From: Pseudoxanthomonas sp. CF385
GTDB taxonomy: Bacteria; Pseudomonadota; Gammaproteobacteria; Xanthomonadales; Xanthomonadaceae
Direction of reading: 5' to 3'
Assembly (NCBI RefSeq): GCF_900104255.1
Contig: NZ_FNKZ01000001.1
Coordinates: 1,952,001 to 2,016,000, forward strand
DNA: 64,000 nt
Shown here: piece by piece, positions 35,430-42,355 of the stretch
How the letters are laid out: each line of letters opens with the position of its first letter
Position numbering within the stretch: position 1 is the stretch's first letter
Notes under the pieces: generated by a model
Database searches by the model: none
What the model saw: the letters and a program-made list of their open reading frames with translations, nothing else
What the model was told of the DNA's origin: nothing
Position numbers and translations under genes: made by a program

Positions 35430-36851
35430 ATGACCAGCAAGAAGACCGCGGGCCGCACCCGCGTCGAACACGACAGCATGGGCGAACTGCGGGTTCCCGC
35501 GGACGCGCTCTGGGGCGCCCAGACGCAGCGGGCCGTGCAGAACTTCCCGATTTCCGGCCGGCCGATGCCGCGCGGGTTCATCCGCGCGCTGGGTCTGGTC
35601 AAGGCCGCCGCCGCGGAGGTCAACGCAGGCCTGGGCCTGCTGCCCAAGGGCGTCGCCAAGGCCGTGCAGGTAGCCGCGAACGAGGTCGCACGTGGCGATC
35701 ACGACGCCCACTTTCCGATCGATGTCTACCAGACCGGCTCGGGCACTTCGTCCAACATGAATGCCAACGAGGTGATCGCCACCCTGGCCTCGCGCGCGGG
35801 CAAGGTGCAGGTCCACCCGAACGATCACGTCAACCTCGGCCAGAGTTCGAACGACGTCATCCCCACGGCCATCCGCGTGGCCGCACAGCTGGCGGCGGTC
35901 GAAGACCTGCTGCCGGCGATCAAGCACCTGCGCAAGACGATCGATGCGCGGGGTCGCGCGCTGGGCAAGGTGGTCAAGACCGGCCGCACGCACCTGATGG
36001 ACGCCATGCCGCTGACCTTCGGCCAGGAGTTCTCGGCGTGGTCGGCGCAACTGTCGTCCGCGCAGGCACGTATCGAGGACACCCTGAAGCGCGTGCGCCG
36101 GTTGCCGTTGGGCGGCACGGCGATCGGCACCGGGATCAACGCCGATCCGCGCTTCGGCGCGCGCGTGGCGAAGGCGCTGTCGGCCGACACCGGCACCCGC
36201 TTCGAAAGCGCGGCCAACAAGTTCGAAGGCCTGGCCGCGCAGGACGATGCCGTCGAACTGTCGGGCCAGCTCACTGCGCTGGCCGTGGCCCTGACCAAGA
36301 TCGCCAACGACCTGCGCTGGATGAATTCCGGGCCGCTGGCCGGCCTGGGCGAAGTGGAGCTCCCGGCACTGCAGCCCGGCAGTTCGATCATGCCCGGCAA
36401 GGTGAACCCGGTGATCCCCGAAGCGACCGTGATGGTCTGCGCGCAGGTGATGGGTTACCACACCGCGGTGACGGTGGCGGGCCAGACCGGCAACTTCCAG
36501 CTCAACGTCACCCTGCCGCTGATCGCGCACAACCTGCTGGATGCGATGCACCTGCTGTCGAACGTGTCGCGGCTGCTGGCGGACGACTGCATCGCGGGGC
36601 TGAAGGTGCGCGATGCGCGGGTCAAGGAAGCGCTGGACCGCAATCCGATCCTGGTGACGGCGCTGAACCCGGTGATCGGCTACGAGAAGGGTGCCGCCAT
36701 CGCCAAGCAGGCGTACAAGCAGAACCGGCCTGTACTGGATGTGGCGCGCGAGGTCACCGGGTTGCCGGAGAAGACGCTGAAGCCGCTGCTGGATCCGGCC
36801 GTGCTCGCCAAGGGCGGCATCCACGGCAAGGCGGGCGGCGGAGGCGGTTGA
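35430..36851 (+). CDS. fumC: Class II fumarate hydratase
   Basis: A 473-residue oxygen-stable fumarase of the TCA cycle, converting fumarate and malate. Signature segments are SGSGTSSNMNANEV near residue 106, HVNLGQSSNDVIPTA, KTGRTHLMDAMPLTFGQE, and GSSIMPGKVNPVIPE at about 318-332 with the mobile catalytic Ser. N-terminal RVEHDSMGELRVPADALWGAQT is the normal start. AGGAG stands before the ATG. Seven residues longer at the C-terminus with a Gly run. Confidence 0.96.
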   Translation: MTSKKTAGRTRVEHDSMGELRVPADALWGAQTQRAVQNFPISGRPMPRGFIRALGLVKAAAAEVNAGLGLLPKGVAKAVQVAANEVARGDHDAHFPIDVYQTGSGTSSNMNANEVIATLASRAGKVQVHPNDHVNLGQSSNDVIPTAIRVAAQLAAVEDLLPAIKHLRKTIDARGRALGKVVKTGRTHLMDAMPLTFGQEFSAWSAQLSSAQARIEDTLKRVRRLPLGGTAIGTGINADPRFGARVAKALSADTGTRFESAANKFEGLAAQDDAVELSGQLTALAVALTKIANDLRWMNSGPLAGLGEVELPALQPGSSIMPGKVNPVIPEATVMVCAQVMGYHTAVTVAGQTGNFQLNVTLPLIAHNLLDAMHLLSNVSRLLADDCIAGLKVRDARVKEALDRNPILVTALNPVIGYEKGAAIAKQAYKQNRPVLDVAREVTGLPEKTLKPLLDPAVLAKGGIHGKAGGGGG

Positions 36852-36893
36852 ACCCGTCCGCCGTGGTGCGGCGGCGGATCGTATTCGACGGGA

Positions 36894-37565
36894 TCAGGGC
36901 TTGGCCGGCTCCGCCGCAGCGGCGTCGGCTTCCGAGGCGGCATTCTTCGCGCCGCCGTCGTCGTCCTTGATCGCCTGGCCGATGGCGCGGCCGACGTCTT
37001 CGCCGGCCTCGTGGCTTTCGTTCTGCTCGGTACGGCAATCCTCGACATCGCCTTCGTCCATGGAGGCATACGGCAGGAAGGCGGGGAGGGCGGCGGCGAG
37101 TTCCTGCTGCGCCTTGTACAGGCCCGGCAGGCGGTCGCAGATCTTCATCGCTTCGGCTTCGACCTTCTTGGCTTCCGCCTCGATCTCCTTGTCGATCTGG
37201 TCCGGGTTGCCGCTGAAGATGCCCTTCACCGCGGCGCCCACCGCCTTGCCGGCGAGCTTGGCGCCTTCCTTGCCGGTGGCGATGCCGGCATCGGCGATGC
37301 CGCCCAGTTCGCGGTGGTAAGCCACCAGCAGCGCGCGCTGCGCGTCGTTCACCTCGACTTTCTTGCCGTCGATGATGAAGTCGCCCTTGGCGGATATTTC
37401 CGCCTTCGGCTGGCCGGTCGCGTTGAGCGTGAGGTTCTGGCCCCACAACGCGCCGGACGCTTCGATGCGGGTGCCGGAATCGGGCGCCTTGTCCTTGCCC
37501 GAACAGGCGGACAGGAGGACGAGGGAGAGCGCGAATGCGAGCGGTGCGAATCGGGTCATGGTCAT
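36894..37565 (-). CDS. YggN/DUF2884-like lipoprotein (copy A)
   Basis: A 223-residue lipoprotein; the signal peptide ends LLSAC (Cys about 21). The core AEISAKGDFIIDGKKVEVND followed by QRALLVAYHRELGGIADAG matches the YggN/DUF2884 pattern. The later CDRLPGLYKAQQELAAALPAFLPYASMDEGDVEDC closely parallels copy B at 38444. A Lys/Glu-rich helix (SGNPDQIDKEIEAEAKKVEAEA) lies between, and the tail is Ala/Glu-rich. Envelope location, function unknown. It is the last gene of the GntR-ABC operon, 10 bp after the GIN-domain gene. Confidence 0.75.
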   Translation of the reverse strand: MTMTRFAPLAFALSLVLLSACSGKDKAPDSGTRIEASGALWGQNLTLNATGQPKAEISAKGDFIIDGKKVEVNDAQRALLVAYHRELGGIADAGIATGKEGAKLAGKAVGAAVKGIFSGNPDQIDKEIEAEAKKVEAEAMKICDRLPGLYKAQQELAAALPAFLPYASMDEGDVEDCRTEQNESHEAGEDVGRAIGQAIKDDDGGAKNAASEADAAAAEPAKP

Positions 37566-37575
37566 TCCTTGGAAC

Positions 37576-38418
37576 TCAATGATGTTTCGGGAGATCGATG
37601 GCGCCCTTCACGCCTTCGTGGTGCACGTCGCCGCTGCCGATGGAGCGCACGGTGAGCGCGCCCGCGACGTTGCGGGCTTCCACGCCGCCGGAGCCGACCG
37701 ACCCGACGACGACGTCGCCGCCGACATCGCGTACTTCGGCGTCGCCGGAACCGATCGAGCCGATCTCGACGCTGCCGGTGCCGCGCACCAGGGTGAAGTC
37801 GCCCGAGCCGATGCTGCCGACATGGACGGCACCGCGAACGCCCCGTGCGGTGACATCGCCGGAGCCGATGGAGATCACGCGCACCGCGCCGACATCGTCC
37901 AGTTCGATGTCGCCGGAACCGACCGACACCGCTGCCAGTCCGCGGATGCCGCGTGCGGCGACATCGCCGGAACCCACGTCGGCGCTCAGCACCGGCGAGC
38001 CGGTGACGACCGCATCGCCGGAGCCGACCTTGAGCTGCACGGGGAGGGTGTCCGGGAGGGTCACCGACAGGGTCTGGTAGGCGTAGTTGTTGCCGAAGAA
38101 CACGCCACTGAAGCGCCCCTCGCGCCAGACGCGCACCACCAGCTTGTCGCCGACGCGTTCCTGGGACAGCTTCAGGCTGGGCAGCGCATCGGCCTGCGAC
38201 GCGCAGGCCTTGCCTTGCAGCGAGACGGCCGCGCCGGGCGAGGCGTCCACGCGCAGGTCGTTGTGGCCGATGTCGAACACGATGGCCTTGGCGCCGGCCG
38301 TGTCCAGCTTCAACTGGCGCGGGGCGGAATGCTTGCAGTGTTCCCCCTGCGCGAACGCGGGTGCCGCGAGCAGCGCGGTCGCGAGGAACAGCAAGGGGGC
38401 GGTGGTCGACATGCGCAT
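37576..38418 (-). CDS. Exported GIN-domain (DUF2807) beta-solenoid protein
   Basis: A 280-residue protein with a signal peptide ending AFA-QG near residue 24. From about residue 125, eight copies of a (S/V/D)(I/V)GSGD turn recur every 17-19 residues (the seventh is GSGG), as in putative auto-transporter adhesin head GIN domains, which fold as right-handed beta-solenoids. The region from 25 to 125 holds the edge sheet and two Cys (in EHCKHSA and KACASQA). It should be periplasmic. The role is unknown. It is flanked by two YggN-like lipoproteins in one operon. Confidence 0.82.
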   Translation of the reverse strand: MRMSTTAPLLFLATALLAAPAFAQGEHCKHSAPRQLKLDTAGAKAIVFDIGHNDLRVDASPGAAVSLQGKACASQADALPSLKLSQERVGDKLVVRVWREGRFSGVFFGNNYAYQTLSVTLPDTLPVQLKVGSGDAVVTGSPVLSADVGSGDVAARGIRGLAAVSVGSGDIELDDVGAVRVISIGSGDVTARGVRGAVHVGSIGSGDFTLVRGTGSVEIGSIGSGDAEVRDVGGDVVVGSVGSGGVEARNVAGALTVRSIGSGDVHHEGVKGAIDLPKHH

Positions 38419-38443
38419 GCGGTCGTTCTCCGGGTGGCGGGAA

Positions 38444-39100
38444 TCAGAAGTTCCAGTCGGACTGGTTGGCGCAGTCGTCCACGTCGGCCTGGTCCATGCT
38501 GGCGTACGGCTTGAACTCCGGCACGGACGCCGCGAGCGCCTGCTGCGCCGTGAGCAGCGCCGGCAGGCGGCCGCAGAGCTGGTCGACCATCGGCTTGATC
38601 TTGGTCTTGGCTTCCGCGCCGACCTGCTTGCCGATCTCGTCGCCCGACTGGCCGGACAGCACGCCCTTGAGTGCGCTTGCTGCCGCATCGATGCCGACCT
38701 TCGCGCCTTCCATGCCGATCGCCATGCCGTCGCCGACCACGGTGATCATCGCGCCGCGGTAGGCCAGCACCTTCTCTTTCTGCTCAGGCGTAGTGGCCAC
38801 GGACTTGCCTTCGATCAGCAGGTCGCCGGCGGGTGTGATCTCCGCTTTCGGCAGCTGCTGGTTCTCGTTGCGGTTGAGCGTGAGGTTCTCGGTCGCCAGC
38901 TTCTTGCGCGCCGCGTCGATCTCGCTCTGGGCCTTCTGCAGTTCCTGGCTGGCTTCACCGAGGCCCTTGCGGGCTTCGTCCATCGCCTTGGCGGCGATGC
39001 CGGTGGGGGCGTTGTCGTGCTTGTCCTGGGCCGGCTGGCAGGCTGCCAGCGCCAGGGCGGCGACGAGGGGGAGCGTACGCAGGAGGGCAGTGCGGGGCAT
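38444..39100 (-). CDS. YggN/DUF2884-like lipoprotein (copy B)
   Basis: A 218-residue lipoprotein with lipobox ALAAC (Cys about 21). A predicted helix (AMDEARKGLGEASQELQKAQ and on to about residue 70) precedes the YggN-like core AEITPAGDLLIEGKSVATTP and QKEKVLAYRGAMITVVGDGM. The end CGRLPALLTAQQALAASVPEFKPYASMDQADVDDC matches copy A residue by residue in pattern. The helical insert is the main difference. Spacing to the GIN gene is 25 bp and to the permease 60 bp, consistent with one operon. Confidence 0.75.
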   Translation of the reverse strand: MPRTALLRTLPLVAALALAACQPAQDKHDNAPTGIAAKAMDEARKGLGEASQELQKAQSEIDAARKKLATENLTLNRNENQQLPKAEITPAGDLLIEGKSVATTPEQKEKVLAYRGAMITVVGDGMAIGMEGAKVGIDAAASALKGVLSGQSGDEIGKQVGAEAKTKIKPMVDQLCGRLPALLTAQQALAASVPEFKPYASMDQADVDDCANQSDWNF

Positions 39101-39160
39101 GGGGGCGTCCTCGTTGAATGGAGAATGGGGTGGCGGCCGCAGCCGCCACCGTGTCCAGGC

Positions 39161-40159
39161 TTATTCGCTTTCGCGCCAGCGGCGCAGGTAGATCGCGCCG
39201 ACGATCAGGGCGATGCCGATGACCGCGCCGATCCAGATGTCCGCCGAGGCGAATGCCTGCCAGCTGCGCGTCAGGTCGATGGCGTTGGCCAGTTCGTCGG
39301 GCGTGTTGATCTCGGTATGCGCGCCGGCGGCACCGCCCTGCAGGGTCGGGAACCAGGCGCCCGGCACCACGCTCAGCAGGCCGCGGTAGACCACCGTGTA
39401 CCAGACCAGGTCATGGCGGATGTTCAGGCCCGGCAGGATGTCGGTCATGCTGATGATCACGCAGGCCAGCACCGGCACCAGCACGGCCCACAGGAACGGC
39501 TTGCTGCGTGCCCACGCCGAGCAGAACATCAGCCAGCCGATCGCCGGCAGCGACCAGAACACGTAGACGGGCAGCGAACTGATCACACCGCCGATGACGC
39601 GCAAGGGGTGCGAATGGGTGAACATCGCGCCACCGGCCGGCAGGCCGTTGACGGTGATGGTCAGCGCCGAGATCAGCCACATCGCCACGCCGATCAGGAT
39701 GCCGATGCCGATGGCCAGCAGCGGCGCCAGGACCAGCGCCCAGGCCAGCTTCGACAGCACCATGTGGGTGTCCGAGACCGGCAACGACTTCCAGAACAGG
39801 ACGCTGCGGTCGCGGCGGTCGTCGTACAGGGTGCCCAGGGCGTAGAAGAACACCACGAACGCCAGCACCACGCAGGCGAGGATCACGCCGCCCAGCAACA
39901 TGCCGTCGCCGATCCCGCCGACGATCTGGTGCGCCTTTTCCGGTGCGTCGTCGATGACGAAGCCGCCATCGCCCATCGAGCGGCGCGCCGCGATGCTGCC
40001 GATGACGGCCAGGATCAGGTTCAGCACCAGGAAGATGCCGCCGGTGATCACCGGCGCCCAGAAGAAGCCGCCGCGGTTCTCCCAGAACTCGCGCTTGATC
40101 AGCCACTTGAACGCGCCCGGCTTGGAGGGCTTGCCCAACGTCGAAGTCACGGCGTTCAT
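39161..40159 (-). CDS. ABC-2 type transporter permease
   Basis: A 332-residue inner-membrane protein with about six hydrophobic segments: one after FKWLIKREFWENRGGFFWAP, others around LLGGVILACVVLAFVVFFYALG, LAWALVLAPLLAIGIGILIG, a pair near PVYVFWSLPAIGWLMF and VLVPVLACVIIS, and the C-terminal IGAVIGIALIVGAIYL. A soluble stretch of 80 residues lies between the first two. It pairs with the ATPase upstream, which it overlaps by 4 bases. The cargo is unknown; related YtrA-linked systems are thought to act against cell-envelope stress. Confidence 0.82.
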   Translation of the reverse strand: MNAVTSTLGKPSKPGAFKWLIKREFWENRGGFFWAPVITGGIFLVLNLILAVIGSIAARRSMGDGGFVIDDAPEKAHQIVGGIGDGMLLGGVILACVVLAFVVFFYALGTLYDDRRDRSVLFWKSLPVSDTHMVLSKLAWALVLAPLLAIGIGILIGVAMWLISALTITVNGLPAGGAMFTHSHPLRVIGGVISSLPVYVFWSLPAIGWLMFCSAWARSKPFLWAVLVPVLACVIISMTDILPGLNIRHDLVWYTVVYRGLLSVVPGAWFPTLQGGAAGAHTEINTPDELANAIDLTRSWQAFASADIWIGAVIGIALIVGAIYLRRWRESE

Positions 40160-41034
40160 GCGTAGGTTCCTTTCATGATGGCGACGAACAGGTCGGCCAG
40201 GCCAGGGGTACGGGTTTCGCCCAGCGGGGCGAGCTGCGCCTGCGGCACGCCGTCGAAGAGCAGCACGGTCTTGCCGAAGGGCAGGGCACGTTCATCGATC
40301 GGTTTCAGGGCACGCGCCTGATCGGCCGCCTCGGCGCCGCCGACGAGCACTTCGGTGTAGCGCTCGGCAACTTCGTCCATCTGCGCGGTCAGCACGATCT
40401 TGCCGTCGCGGATGAACATCACGTCGGTGAGGATGTGTTCGATCTCCTCGACCTGGTGGGTGGTGACGATGATGGTCTTCTGCTCGTCGAAGTAGTCTTC
40501 CAGCAGGCGTTGGTAGAACTGCTTGCGGTAGAGGATGTCCAGGCCGAGCGTGGGTTCGTCCAGGACCAGCAGTTTGGCGTCGATCGCCATCACCAGCGCC
40601 AGGTGCAGCTGCACGATCATGCCCTTGGACATCTCGCGGACGCGCAGGTTGGGCTTGAGCTGGGTGTTGGCGATGAATCGCTCGCACTTGGCCCGATCGA
40701 AGCGGGGGTGCACGCCTTCGACGAAATCGATGGCTTCCTTGACCTTCATCCAGCGCGGCAGCACGGCCACGTCGGCGATGAAGCAGACGTCCTTCATCAG
40801 TTCGTCGCGGTCCTTGCGCGGATCCAGGCCCAGCACCCGCAGCTGGCCCTCGAACGGCGTCAGGCCGAGGATGGCCTTCAGCGCGGTGGTCTTGCCCGCG
40901 CCGTTGGGACCGATCAGACCGATGATCTTGCCCGCCTCGATCTCGAAGCTGGTGTTGTCCAGCGCCAGCTTGTTCTTGTAGCCCTTGCGAAGACCGTGGG
41001 CAGTGACCACGGTGTTGGCGATTGCGGCATTCAT
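40156..41034 (-). CDS. ABC transporter ATP-binding protein (YtrB-like)
   Basis: A 292-residue nucleotide-binding subunit. Walker A is GPNGAGKTT (about 40-48), Walker B LLVLDEPTLGLD, and the switch His is in TTHQVEEIEH. The signature motif is the degenerate MSKGMIVQLHLALVMA in place of LSGGQ, as in YtrB/EcsA-type exporters linked to GntR regulators. A C-terminal domain of about 70 residues follows. The gene overlaps the GntR gene by one base and the permease gene by four, giving a strictly coupled set. Confidence 0.9.
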   Translation of the reverse strand: MNAAIANTVVTAHGLRKGYKNKLALDNTSFEIEAGKIIGLIGPNGAGKTTALKAILGLTPFEGQLRVLGLDPRKDRDELMKDVCFIADVAVLPRWMKVKEAIDFVEGVHPRFDRAKCERFIANTQLKPNLRVREMSKGMIVQLHLALVMAIDAKLLVLDEPTLGLDILYRKQFYQRLLEDYFDEQKTIIVTTHQVEEIEHILTDVMFIRDGKIVLTAQMDEVAERYTEVLVGGAEAADQARALKPIDERALPFGKTVLLFDGVPQAQLAPLGETRTPGLADLFVAIMKGTYA

Positions 41035-41396
41035 CACTTGTTCCCCTTGGATTGCAGCAGCTCTTCGATAGACAGGCCCAGGCGCTCGATGCGCTCGGCG
41101 ACGGCCGGCCATTCTTCGGTCAGGAACCGCTCGCGCTCGCTGCCGCGCAGCTTCTTGGACGCTTCGTCGGTGACGAACATGCCCAGGCCGCGGCGCTTCT
41201 CCACCAGGGCCTCGTCGGCCAGCTCCTGATAGGCGCGCGATACGGTGATCGGATTCAGCTGGTACTCCGCGGCCACCTGGCGCACGGAGGGCAGGGCGTC
41301 GCCCGGCTTCAGGATCCCGTCCAGCATCATGGCGATCACACGATCCTTCAGCTGGCGGTAGATGGGAGCGCCGTCGCTCCATTGGATGGACGTCAT
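41034..41396 (-). CDS. GntR-family regulator, YtrA subfamily
   Basis: A 120-residue repressor: a GntR winged helix (about 10-75: APIYRQLKDRVIAMMLDGIL, LPSVRQVAAEYQLNPITVSRAYQELADEALVEKRRGLGMFVTD) and a short helical tail without a ligand-binding FCD or UTRA domain, which defines the YtrA subfamily. Such proteins repress their own ABC operon. The start has GAGGAG upstream. An inverted repeat overlapping the operon -10 box fits autoregulation. Confidence 0.92.
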   Translation of the reverse strand: MTSIQWSDGAPIYRQLKDRVIAMMLDGILKPGDALPSVRQVAAEYQLNPITVSRAYQELADEALVEKRRGLGMFVTDEASKKLRGSERERFLTEEWPAVAERIERLGLSIEELLQSKGNK

Positions 41397-41399
41397 GGC

Positions 41400-41657
41400 T
41401 CAGCTCCTCGGACGCAGCGATTGGCCAAAGGAGAAGTAGGGCATGGCCAGCGAAGCCCGGGCGCGACGCTTGTGCTGCCGCGTGTCCGGGTTGCCGTCAT
41501 CGCCTGCAATCTCGCGGGCATCGGATTCCAGCGCGGCCAGCGCGGCGGATTCCACTTCGGCCGTGCGGGCGCCGGTGACGGTCGCCAGCACACCGATCGC
41601 CAGCAGCAGGCCGCCGACGGCCAGGCTGGGCAGTGTGTGGGTCAGTTTCTGGTTCAT
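41400..41657 (-). CDS. Small single-pass membrane protein leading the GntR-ABC operon
   Basis: An 85-residue protein. Residues about 9-30 (LPSLAVGGLLLAIGVLATVTG) form one hydrophobic segment, followed by an Ala/Glu helix and a basic tail (TRQHKRRARASLAMPYFSFG). I do not recognise it. It begins at ATG 41657 downstream of a good promoter and stops 3 bp before the GntR gene, so it should be translated as the first cistron. It could be a membrane sensor or partner of the ABC permease, but this is inference. Confidence 0.6.
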   Translation of the reverse strand: MNQKLTHTLPSLAVGGLLLAIGVLATVTGARTAEVESAALAALESDAREIAGDDGNPDTRQHKRRARASLAMPYFSFGQSLRPRS

Positions 41658-41683
41658 GGCATCCCCCGCTGAGTTGGGTGAGT

Positions 41684-41724
41684 GGTGTTGTATTCAACTA
41701 TAACACCAAAACACAGGGCGTCAA
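41684..41724 (-). promoter_or_regulatory. Promoter and inverted-repeat operator of the GntR-ABC operon
   Basis: Read leftward: -35 TTGACG (41724-41719), 16 bp spacer, -10 TATAGT (41702-41697). An inverted repeat of 9 bp arms with one mismatch (41684-41692 and 41699-41707, 6 bp centre) covers the -10 box. Its outer bases read GGTG-N16-CACC, a pattern I recall for YtrA-type repressors in Xanthomonas. Confidence 0.7.
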
Positions 41725-41791
41725 CTCCCTTGTGGGGTTTTGTCACCCAACTGAAGGCATACTTGTCATGTTCGTACTAGCGGAGCAGATC

Positions 41792-42355
41792 ATGACATCC
41801 AAGTTACTGAAATCATTTGCTTTTGTGGCGCTCCTCGGGACTGCCGCGACCGTCCTGGCGGCCGGTCTGCTCGATGTCAGCTACCGCCCCCTGAGCGGAA
41901 AGAGCCCCGTGAACCTGAAGGAAAAGTACACCGGGCAGGTGCTGCTGGTGGTCAATACCGCCAGTAAGTGCGGTTACACGCCTCAATACGAGGGATTGGA
42001 AGCGCTGAACCAGCGGTACGCGGGAAAGGGCTTTGCGGTGCTGGGTTTCCCTTCCAACGACTTCAAGGGACAGGAACCCGGTAGCGAGAAGGAAATCCAG
42101 GAGTTCTGCACGCTCACCTACGGGGTGAAGTTCCCGATGTTCGAGAAGGTGTCCGTGATCGGCGAGAACGCCACGCCCTTGTACAAGGCGCTCACCGAAG
42201 CCACGGGCACCGCACCGGGATGGAACTTCCACAAGTACCTGATCTCCCGCGACGGTCGCGTGGTCGCGAACTTCCCCAGCAAGATCAAGCCGGACGATCC
42301 GGCGCTGGTCGCTGCGATCGAGCGCGAGCTGGCCGCACCGCGTGCGAAGCGCTGA
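41792..42355 (+). CDS. Exported glutathione peroxidase
   Basis: A 187-residue thiol peroxidase with a cleavable signal-like N-terminus (KLLKSFAFVALLGTAATVLA), so probably periplasmic; most bacterial family members are cytosolic. Catalytic residues are Cys60 (VVNTASKCGYTPQYEGLEAL, Cys in place of selenocysteine), Gln94 in NDFKGQEPG and Trp144 in APGWNFHKYL. It reduces peroxides with thioredoxin or similar thiols. The ATG 41792 has CGGAG upstream; an ATG at 41768 would add eight residues. It is divergent from the GntR-ABC operon. Confidence 0.9.
   Translation: MTSKLLKSFAFVALLGTAATVLAAGLLDVSYRPLSGKSPVNLKEKYTGQVLLVVNTASKCGYTPQYEGLEALNQRYAGKGFAVLGFPSNDFKGQEPGSEKEIQEFCTLTYGVKFPMFEKVSVIGENATPLYKALTEATGTAPGWNFHKYLISRDGRVVANFPSKIKPDDPALVAAIERELAAPRAKR

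Follow-up and report, generated by a model that had tools for sequence, protein, structure and literature searches.

Introduction

The closest described relatives of the locus studied here are exporter operons and regulons governed by GntR regulators of the YtrA type. The YtrA regulator of Xanthomonas citri matters for virulence; its operator is reportedly GGTG-N16-CACC, and it is said to have three direct target operons, one of them consisting of trmL with XAC0231. In Bacillus subtilis, the ytrGABCDEF operon combines a YtrA-type GntR gene with ABC transporter genes and is said to start with a small-peptide gene. PmtA of Staphylococcus is an exporter of phenol-soluble modulins, with PmtR as its regulator, and LiaG is a protein of an envelope-stress operon. 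Here we analyzed a seven-gene operon in a stretch of 64,000 nucleotides from Pseudoxanthomonas sp. CF385 (RefSeq contig NZ_FNKZ01000001.1, positions 1,952,001 to 2,016,000; referred to as the window), which a sequence-only reading had presented as an uncharacterised system.

The system is a variant of YtrA-type exporter operons and is not categorically new. On balance, we think it probable that it is a self-repressed operon for envelope defence or export; because additional target sites of the same repressor are predicted, it would form the main arm of a small envelope and efflux regulon. YggN, DUF4097 solenoids and a small protein with a conserved tail, three families whose function is barely known or not known at all, would join a regulon that is defined and testable and has a predicted, sequence-specific operator.

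Operon structure and exporter core

Seven minus-strand frames were confirmed, labelled in reading order T (85 aa), R (GntR), A (ATPase), P (permease), Y1, G (solenoid) and Y2 (Table 1). Their intergenic gaps (3, -1, -4, 60, 25 and 10 bp from T to Y2) were identical to those given by the sequence-only reading. In a scan of positions 36500-42000, the sole sigma70-like site lay upstream of the operon and matched the consensus at 10 of 12 positions, against a mean of 0.4 sites in shuffled sequences. The scan detected no promoter-like site within the operon and no minus-strand terminator-like site within it or at its end. As far as can be judged from the DNA itself, the lone promoter and the tight spacing therefore point to one transcription unit, as had been proposed.

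A search with the permease yielded 80 loci in the order, of which 67 belong to the Lysobacteraceae side and 13 to the Rhodanobacteraceae side. Because the GntR, ATPase and permease genes were retained in all 80, the arrangement is not a product of chance. The closest named relative by permease was Pseudoxanthomonas mexicana, with 95% identity.

The assignment of these genes to a YtrA-type GntR regulator with an ABC exporter was upheld by Pfam families, regulator size and synteny. R matched PF00392 with 55.5 bits (cut-off 27) over residues 13-75 of its 120; its nearest solved chain was 3tqn_A (E 1.1e-33), and the eight best solved chains were 113-134 aa long. With about 120 aa, R comprises a GntR winged helix and a short tail without a large effector domain, and it is encoded with ABC-2 type transporter genes at every permease locus, which corresponds to the YtrA subfamily in both size and context. 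A matched ABC_tran with 77.3 bits (cut-off 25). P matched ABC2_membrane_5 (PF13346) weakly, with 20.0 bits against a cut-off of 25, and an alignment of 23 permeases contained 53 invariant columns.

Among NCBIfam models, PmtA was the best for A, and PmtR, tied with PdxR, was the best regulator model for R, although all three scored far below their cut-offs (135 bits against 350 for PmtA and 56.8 against 200 for PmtR). Whereas the Pmt system is said to have two ATPase-permease pairs, the operon has one. It also differs from B. subtilis ytr, where five transporter genes are reported (two ATPases, further permeases and an extra subunit), and in which lipoproteins and a solenoid are not known to be part of the operon.

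Predicted operator and regulon

The -10 box (41702-41697) lies inside a 24-bp palindrome, GGTGTTATAGTTGAATACAACACC, which begins 50 bp ahead of the start of T. In 70 of the 80 permease loci, the short form of this palindrome, GGTG-N16-CACC, stood no more than 400 bp ahead of the first gene detected, and changes in the operator fell mainly in the middle bases at loci of two families. The Xanthomonas loci among those fetched carry the same operon and operator. The short form is uninformative, however, and specificity is confined to the longer form. Of 299 genomes from the order, 145 contained the tight pattern GGTGTTNTANNNNNNTANAACACC, 137 of them with a single copy and eight with two, and its backwards control gave no match in any genome listed.

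We then scanned the 31 genomes of the genus for the operator, allowing three mismatches at most, alongside a reversed control. The genome of strain CF385 contained exactly three sites and no control match. The pattern was present in all 31 genomes, with three sites in 21, two in two, four in six and five in two, and the reversed control was silent in 26. For the sites outside the operon, we fetched 20 regions, two from each of ten genomes, leaving out one further site each in genomes G239, G268 and G316.

The second site of strain CF385 (one mismatch; G000:C3:91169-91192, L164:2670-2693) lies 28 nt before a gene for an RND/HlyD-type adaptor lipoprotein, and in all ten loci checked such a site was found 12-31 nt ahead of the aligned adaptor start. 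The third site (three mismatches; G000:C1:443739-443762, L165:2740-2763) precedes a gene for a 127-aa XAC0231-like exported protein, again as in 10 of 10 loci. The distance to the aligned start of this gene was 23-27 nt in nine loci and 98 nt in the tenth, whose frame itself begins 29 nt away, and a trmL-like gene of the SpoU family followed in nine of the ten. The names RND and trmL are presumptive, being our assignments guided by family matches. The XAC0231-like protein of strain CF385 matched the NCBIfam model XAC0231 (NF052303) with E 4.5e-19 and 69.1 bits, below the cut-off of 140. It contains three repeats like IVDLPTVTVTPDAADL, which resemble TonB boxes by eye only.

In other families of the order, ten operator loci from the tight-form search were inspected (L134-L143). 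The operator led into an adaptor gene resembling that at the second site, as judged by eye, in four (L136-L139) and into a T-like protein followed by R in two (L141 and L143). In L142, R was located 357 nt downstream, and in the remaining three (L134, L135 and L140) neither the adaptor nor a T-like protein with R followed. Different very small frames, of 53 and 55 aa, occupy the place of T directly after the operator in L134 and L140.

The predicted regulon fits that reported for X. citri YtrA, and to call the system uncharacterised is therefore too strong. The reported operator consensus stands at the operon's own promoter, and most genomes of the genus have three sites, one of them before XAC0231-like and trmL-like genes, which agrees with the targets said to be controlled in X. 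citri. This likeness is one of operator and target set. The conserved tail of T, the variable lipoproteins and the link to a solenoid are, by contrast, features that are not known from the X. citri regulon.

Lipoproteins and solenoid

Both Y1 and Y2 exceeded the Pfam cut-off for DUF2884/YggN (41.1 and 60.0 bits against 30.6), and DUF2884 matches in the genome of strain CF385 were confined to the operon. They differ from YggN as otherwise known in belonging to a pump operon and varying in copy number; PRK10626, which we take to be the model for E. coli yggN, scored Y2 at 14.9 against a cut-off of 279 and was not listed for Y1. A structure model of Y (predicted local distance difference test score, pLDDT, 82.6) consisted of a small four-strand part and a long helical hairpin, and structure comparison returned no significant solved relative.

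The sequence-only reading had envisaged an assembly of two lipoproteins and the solenoid between them; as a fixed arrangement, this was not supported by the diversity of these genes. Full-length Y copies ranged from one to three per locus where present: two in the window and in strain Root630, and three in P. mexicana. A tree of 57 Y sequences revealed at least three lineages with no fixed place relative to G; one lineage precedes or follows G depending on the species, and Y1 clusters with the lipoprotein that comes first in P. mexicana-type loci. The third P. mexicana lipoprotein lies between Y1 and the solenoid (L006:9807-10454), without a counterpart in the window or Root630. In L045 (10745-11032) and further Xanthomonas loci, a partial, short YggN-like match follows the full one and, in the alignment, lacks most of the long hairpin region.

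G had been described as a GIN solenoid. The fold is borne out by a beta-solenoid model (pLDDT 91.7), for which the best Foldseek match was 4qrk (E 1.1e-8) and further matches included other solenoid entries titled putative adhesin. As a name, DUF4097 ("toastrack"; 31.0 bits, cut-off 22.9) is the better Pfam label, since DUF2807 (GIN) stays just below its cut-off (22.8 against 24.2). G is thus like LiaG, its nearest NCBIfam model, in being an exported beta-solenoid with a DUF4097 match, but it scored only 39.2 bits with that model against a cut-off of 285, and it would be under GntR control rather than the two-component control of LiaG. A second DUF4097 match in the genome of strain CF385 lies off the operon (G000:C2:693145-693474).

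A lipoprotein gene was kept beside the pump in 78 of the 80 loci and a solenoid gene in 61. Those without either were L049, on a 5.3-kb contig, and L076. Synteny restricted to the GntR-ABC part had been named as evidence against an extended unit. On the Lysobacteraceae side it extends to both G (61 of 67) and Y (66 of 67); on the Rhodanobacteraceae side it reaches the lipoprotein (12 of 13) and not the solenoid (0 of 13). G homologues occurred in 202 of the 299 order genomes. G was apart from the operon in the five genomes examined from family f12, which we took as Rhodanobacteraceae, and by eye adjoined mazG/cysQ-like genes there; T was on another contig or far away in four of these, and the fifth (G295) had no T match. 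The proposal of an envelope assembly served by the ABC pump thus stands as far as the frequent neighborhood of Y and G with the pump goes, and it is weakened by the separate position of G in these five genomes and by the variation of Y.

Beyond the order, the P profile matched 28 of 370 genomes of the class, five of which belong to the order. We fetched 15 of the 23 outside genomes and one from within the order; in one of the 15 (L291), P was not found by the script. R, A and P stood together in seven outside loci (L282, L284, L288, L289, L290, L292 and L295), and a solenoid gene flanked them in three. It precedes R in L295 (DUF2807, E 2.8e-50) and follows P in L290, with DUF4097 above the cut-off, and in L282, a weak case with a G-profile E value of 1.8e-7 and no Pfam family above the cut-off. 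No Y match was present among the neighboring frames shown at outside pump loci. The solenoid-pump link therefore recurs beyond the order, and Y beside the pump was seen in the order only.

These distributions bear on the possibility that the lipoprotein and solenoid genes are passengers, placed behind the promoter by positional chance. The location of G outside the operon on the Rhodanobacteraceae side, the varying number and order of lipoproteins and their absence among the frames shown beside outside pumps would all agree with this. However, passengers would hardly be expected to remain beside the pump as often as Y and G do in the order, to adjoin it on either side in three outside loci, or, in the case of DUF2884, to be restricted to the operon in the genome of strain CF385, and we regard this explanation as quite improbable.

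The small protein T

Whether or not it acts as a sensor, as the sequence-only reading considered possible, T is a genuine protein with strong conservation of its tail. Its N-terminus is signal-like or anchored, its middle varies, and its tail follows the pattern [AS]MPYFSF..LRPRS; no Pfam family gave a meaningful match. A search for frames carrying the tail detected one ending just upstream of gntR in 79 of the 80 loci, including a 14-aa stub and one frame of 59 aa by the start rule used; the miss was L015, where frames are broken. In 27 aligned T sequences, P73 and S76 never varied, and M72, Y74 and F77 were almost invariant. On the Rhodanobacteraceae side the tail usually reads MPYYSFG...ISKE, and the variants LPFFSF, MPYVSL and MPFVSI also occur.

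The window and L006-L013 form a set of nine close sequences, in which no amino-acid change affected the tail at a synonymous difference of 0.25, whereas the rest of T had a ratio of nonsynonymous to synonymous change (dN/dS) of 0.40. The corresponding values for tail and rest were 0.15 and 0.35 in 25 Xanthomonas loci, and 0.31 and 0.85 across all 80 loci, where divergence is strong. T occurred once per genome in 140 of the 299 genomes of the order. The strict operator was found in 110 of these 140 and in 35 of the 159 genomes without a T match; among the 35 are genomes with a sub-threshold T (G012, G062 and G265) and genomes whose operator precedes an adaptor gene (G041 and G055).

T appears to be the newest and most unexpected element of the operon, and its possible functions are predicted here from sequence features. 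In one reading, T supplies the circuit's signal. The pump would sense or export the tail of this secreted or anchored peptide, and the tail would determine the state of the repressor, so that the envelope monitors its own integrity. The place of T as the first gene after the operator, its nearly constant position before gntR, its single copy in the 140 genomes that have it and the unchanged tail at normal synonymous variation would suit such a role. So would the net charge of the tail, +3 to +6 in 21 Lysobacteraceae-side sequences, and the small, exported-looking frames (by eye) that precede gntR in four of the seven outside loci (L282, L284, L288 and L289). On the other hand, the signal-like N-terminus suggests the Sec route and not an ABC pump, the Rhodanobacteraceae-side tail is not strongly cationic (0 to +2 in six sequences), and conservation of the tail could just as well reflect docking. 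We consider a signalling T rather unlikely.

A structural partner or small-protein modulator of the pump, whose tail docks on the permease, the RND pump, a lipoprotein or the solenoid, is a tentative alternative with somewhat better prospects, though still short of an even chance. It is consistent with a conserved, docking-like tail on a variable tether and with the same predicted operator governing both an ABC pump and an RND/HlyD-type adaptor.

A broader extension would be that YtrA-type exporter operons of Gammaproteobacteria centre on a small exported protein encoded first, with a conserved tail (MPYxSF in most Lysobacterales seen) that is sensed or delivered, that the pump, lipoproteins and solenoid serve this peptide, and that T and the XAC0231-like proteins form one regulon-wide family. 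We hold this to be doubtful. The T-like proteins of L141 and L143 combine LPxVxVxP-type repeats with an MPYYSFG tail, and the T-position frame of L282 has XAC0231-like repeats. T-position proteins of L296, L081 and L282 matched the XAC0231 model weakly (E 0.003 to 0.046, the latter for L282), all below the cut-off, and a profile comparison with Lysobacteraceae-type T gave E 0.027 at the N-terminus only. The T of the window did not match the XAC0231 model.

Proposed mechanism

In the self-repressed exporter operon that we favor, the short GntR repressor would bind the 24-bp palindrome over the -10 box and silence its own operon, as the position and conservation of the palindrome suggest. Repression might be lifted by an envelope-active or hydrophobic compound, or by the stress that such a compound causes. 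Judging from its family, the single ATPase-permease pair, probably as an A2P2 dimer, would export an amphipathic or lipid-like substrate from the inner membrane, with the YggN lipoproteins and the DUF4097 solenoid as putative periplasmic or outer-membrane helpers and T as a candidate modulator acting through its conserved tail. The same repressor may also govern the RND/HlyD-type adaptor and the XAC0231-like protein with the trmL-like gene, before which its predicted sites were seen.

Several observations weigh against this reading. Ten of the 80 permease loci had no GGTG-N16-CACC within 400 bp, one of which (L074) has a site at -424. In its short form, the single site of the window compares with an average of 1.73 in shuffles of the window, and the genome of strain CF385 contains 137 bare matches against 188 for the backwards control. 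At three mismatches, the control matched once in five of the 31 genomes of the genus; a lone weak site can therefore be due to chance. Finally, since G lies outside the operon on the Rhodanobacteraceae side and the number and order of Y vary, not all parts can be obligate partners.

Features and neighboring genes

Table 1. Positions of the operon genes, the predicted control elements and a neighboring gene in the window
Feature	Position	Strand	Basis or remark
Sigma70-like promoter, TTGACG-16-TATAGT	41697..41724	-	Lone promoter-like site in 36500-42000
Predicted operator palindrome GGTGTTATAGTTGAATACAACACC, overlapping -10	41684..41707	-	GGTG-N16-CACC
T, small protein, 85 aa	41400..41657	-	Signal-like or anchored N-terminus; conserved C-terminal SLAMPYFSFGQSLRPRS
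R, YtrA-type GntR repressor (predicted), 120 aa	41034..41396	-	PF00392; nearest solved chain 3tqn_A
A, ABC exporter ATPase, 292 aa	40156..41034	-	ABC_tran; best NCBIfam model PmtA
P, ABC-2 type permease, 332 aa	39161..40159	-	Weak PF13346; alignment of 23 sequences
Y1, YggN/DUF2884 lipoprotein, 218 aa	38444..39100	-	Pfam and Y tree
G, exported DUF4097 beta-solenoid, 280 aa	37576..38418	-	Pfam and structure model
Y2, YggN/DUF2884 lipoprotein, 223 aa	36894..37565	-	Pfam and Y tree
Glutathione peroxidase-like gene, outside the operon	41792..42355	+	PF00255; divergent in 63 of 80 loci

In Pseudoxanthomonas sp. NC8 (L015), the R, A and G frames are each split, through either sequencing errors or decay. 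Among the neighbors of the operon, fumC was present and convergent in 74 of the 80 loci. The start of the divergent glutathione peroxidase-like gene lies 85 bp from the operator, and this gene might share control with the operon.

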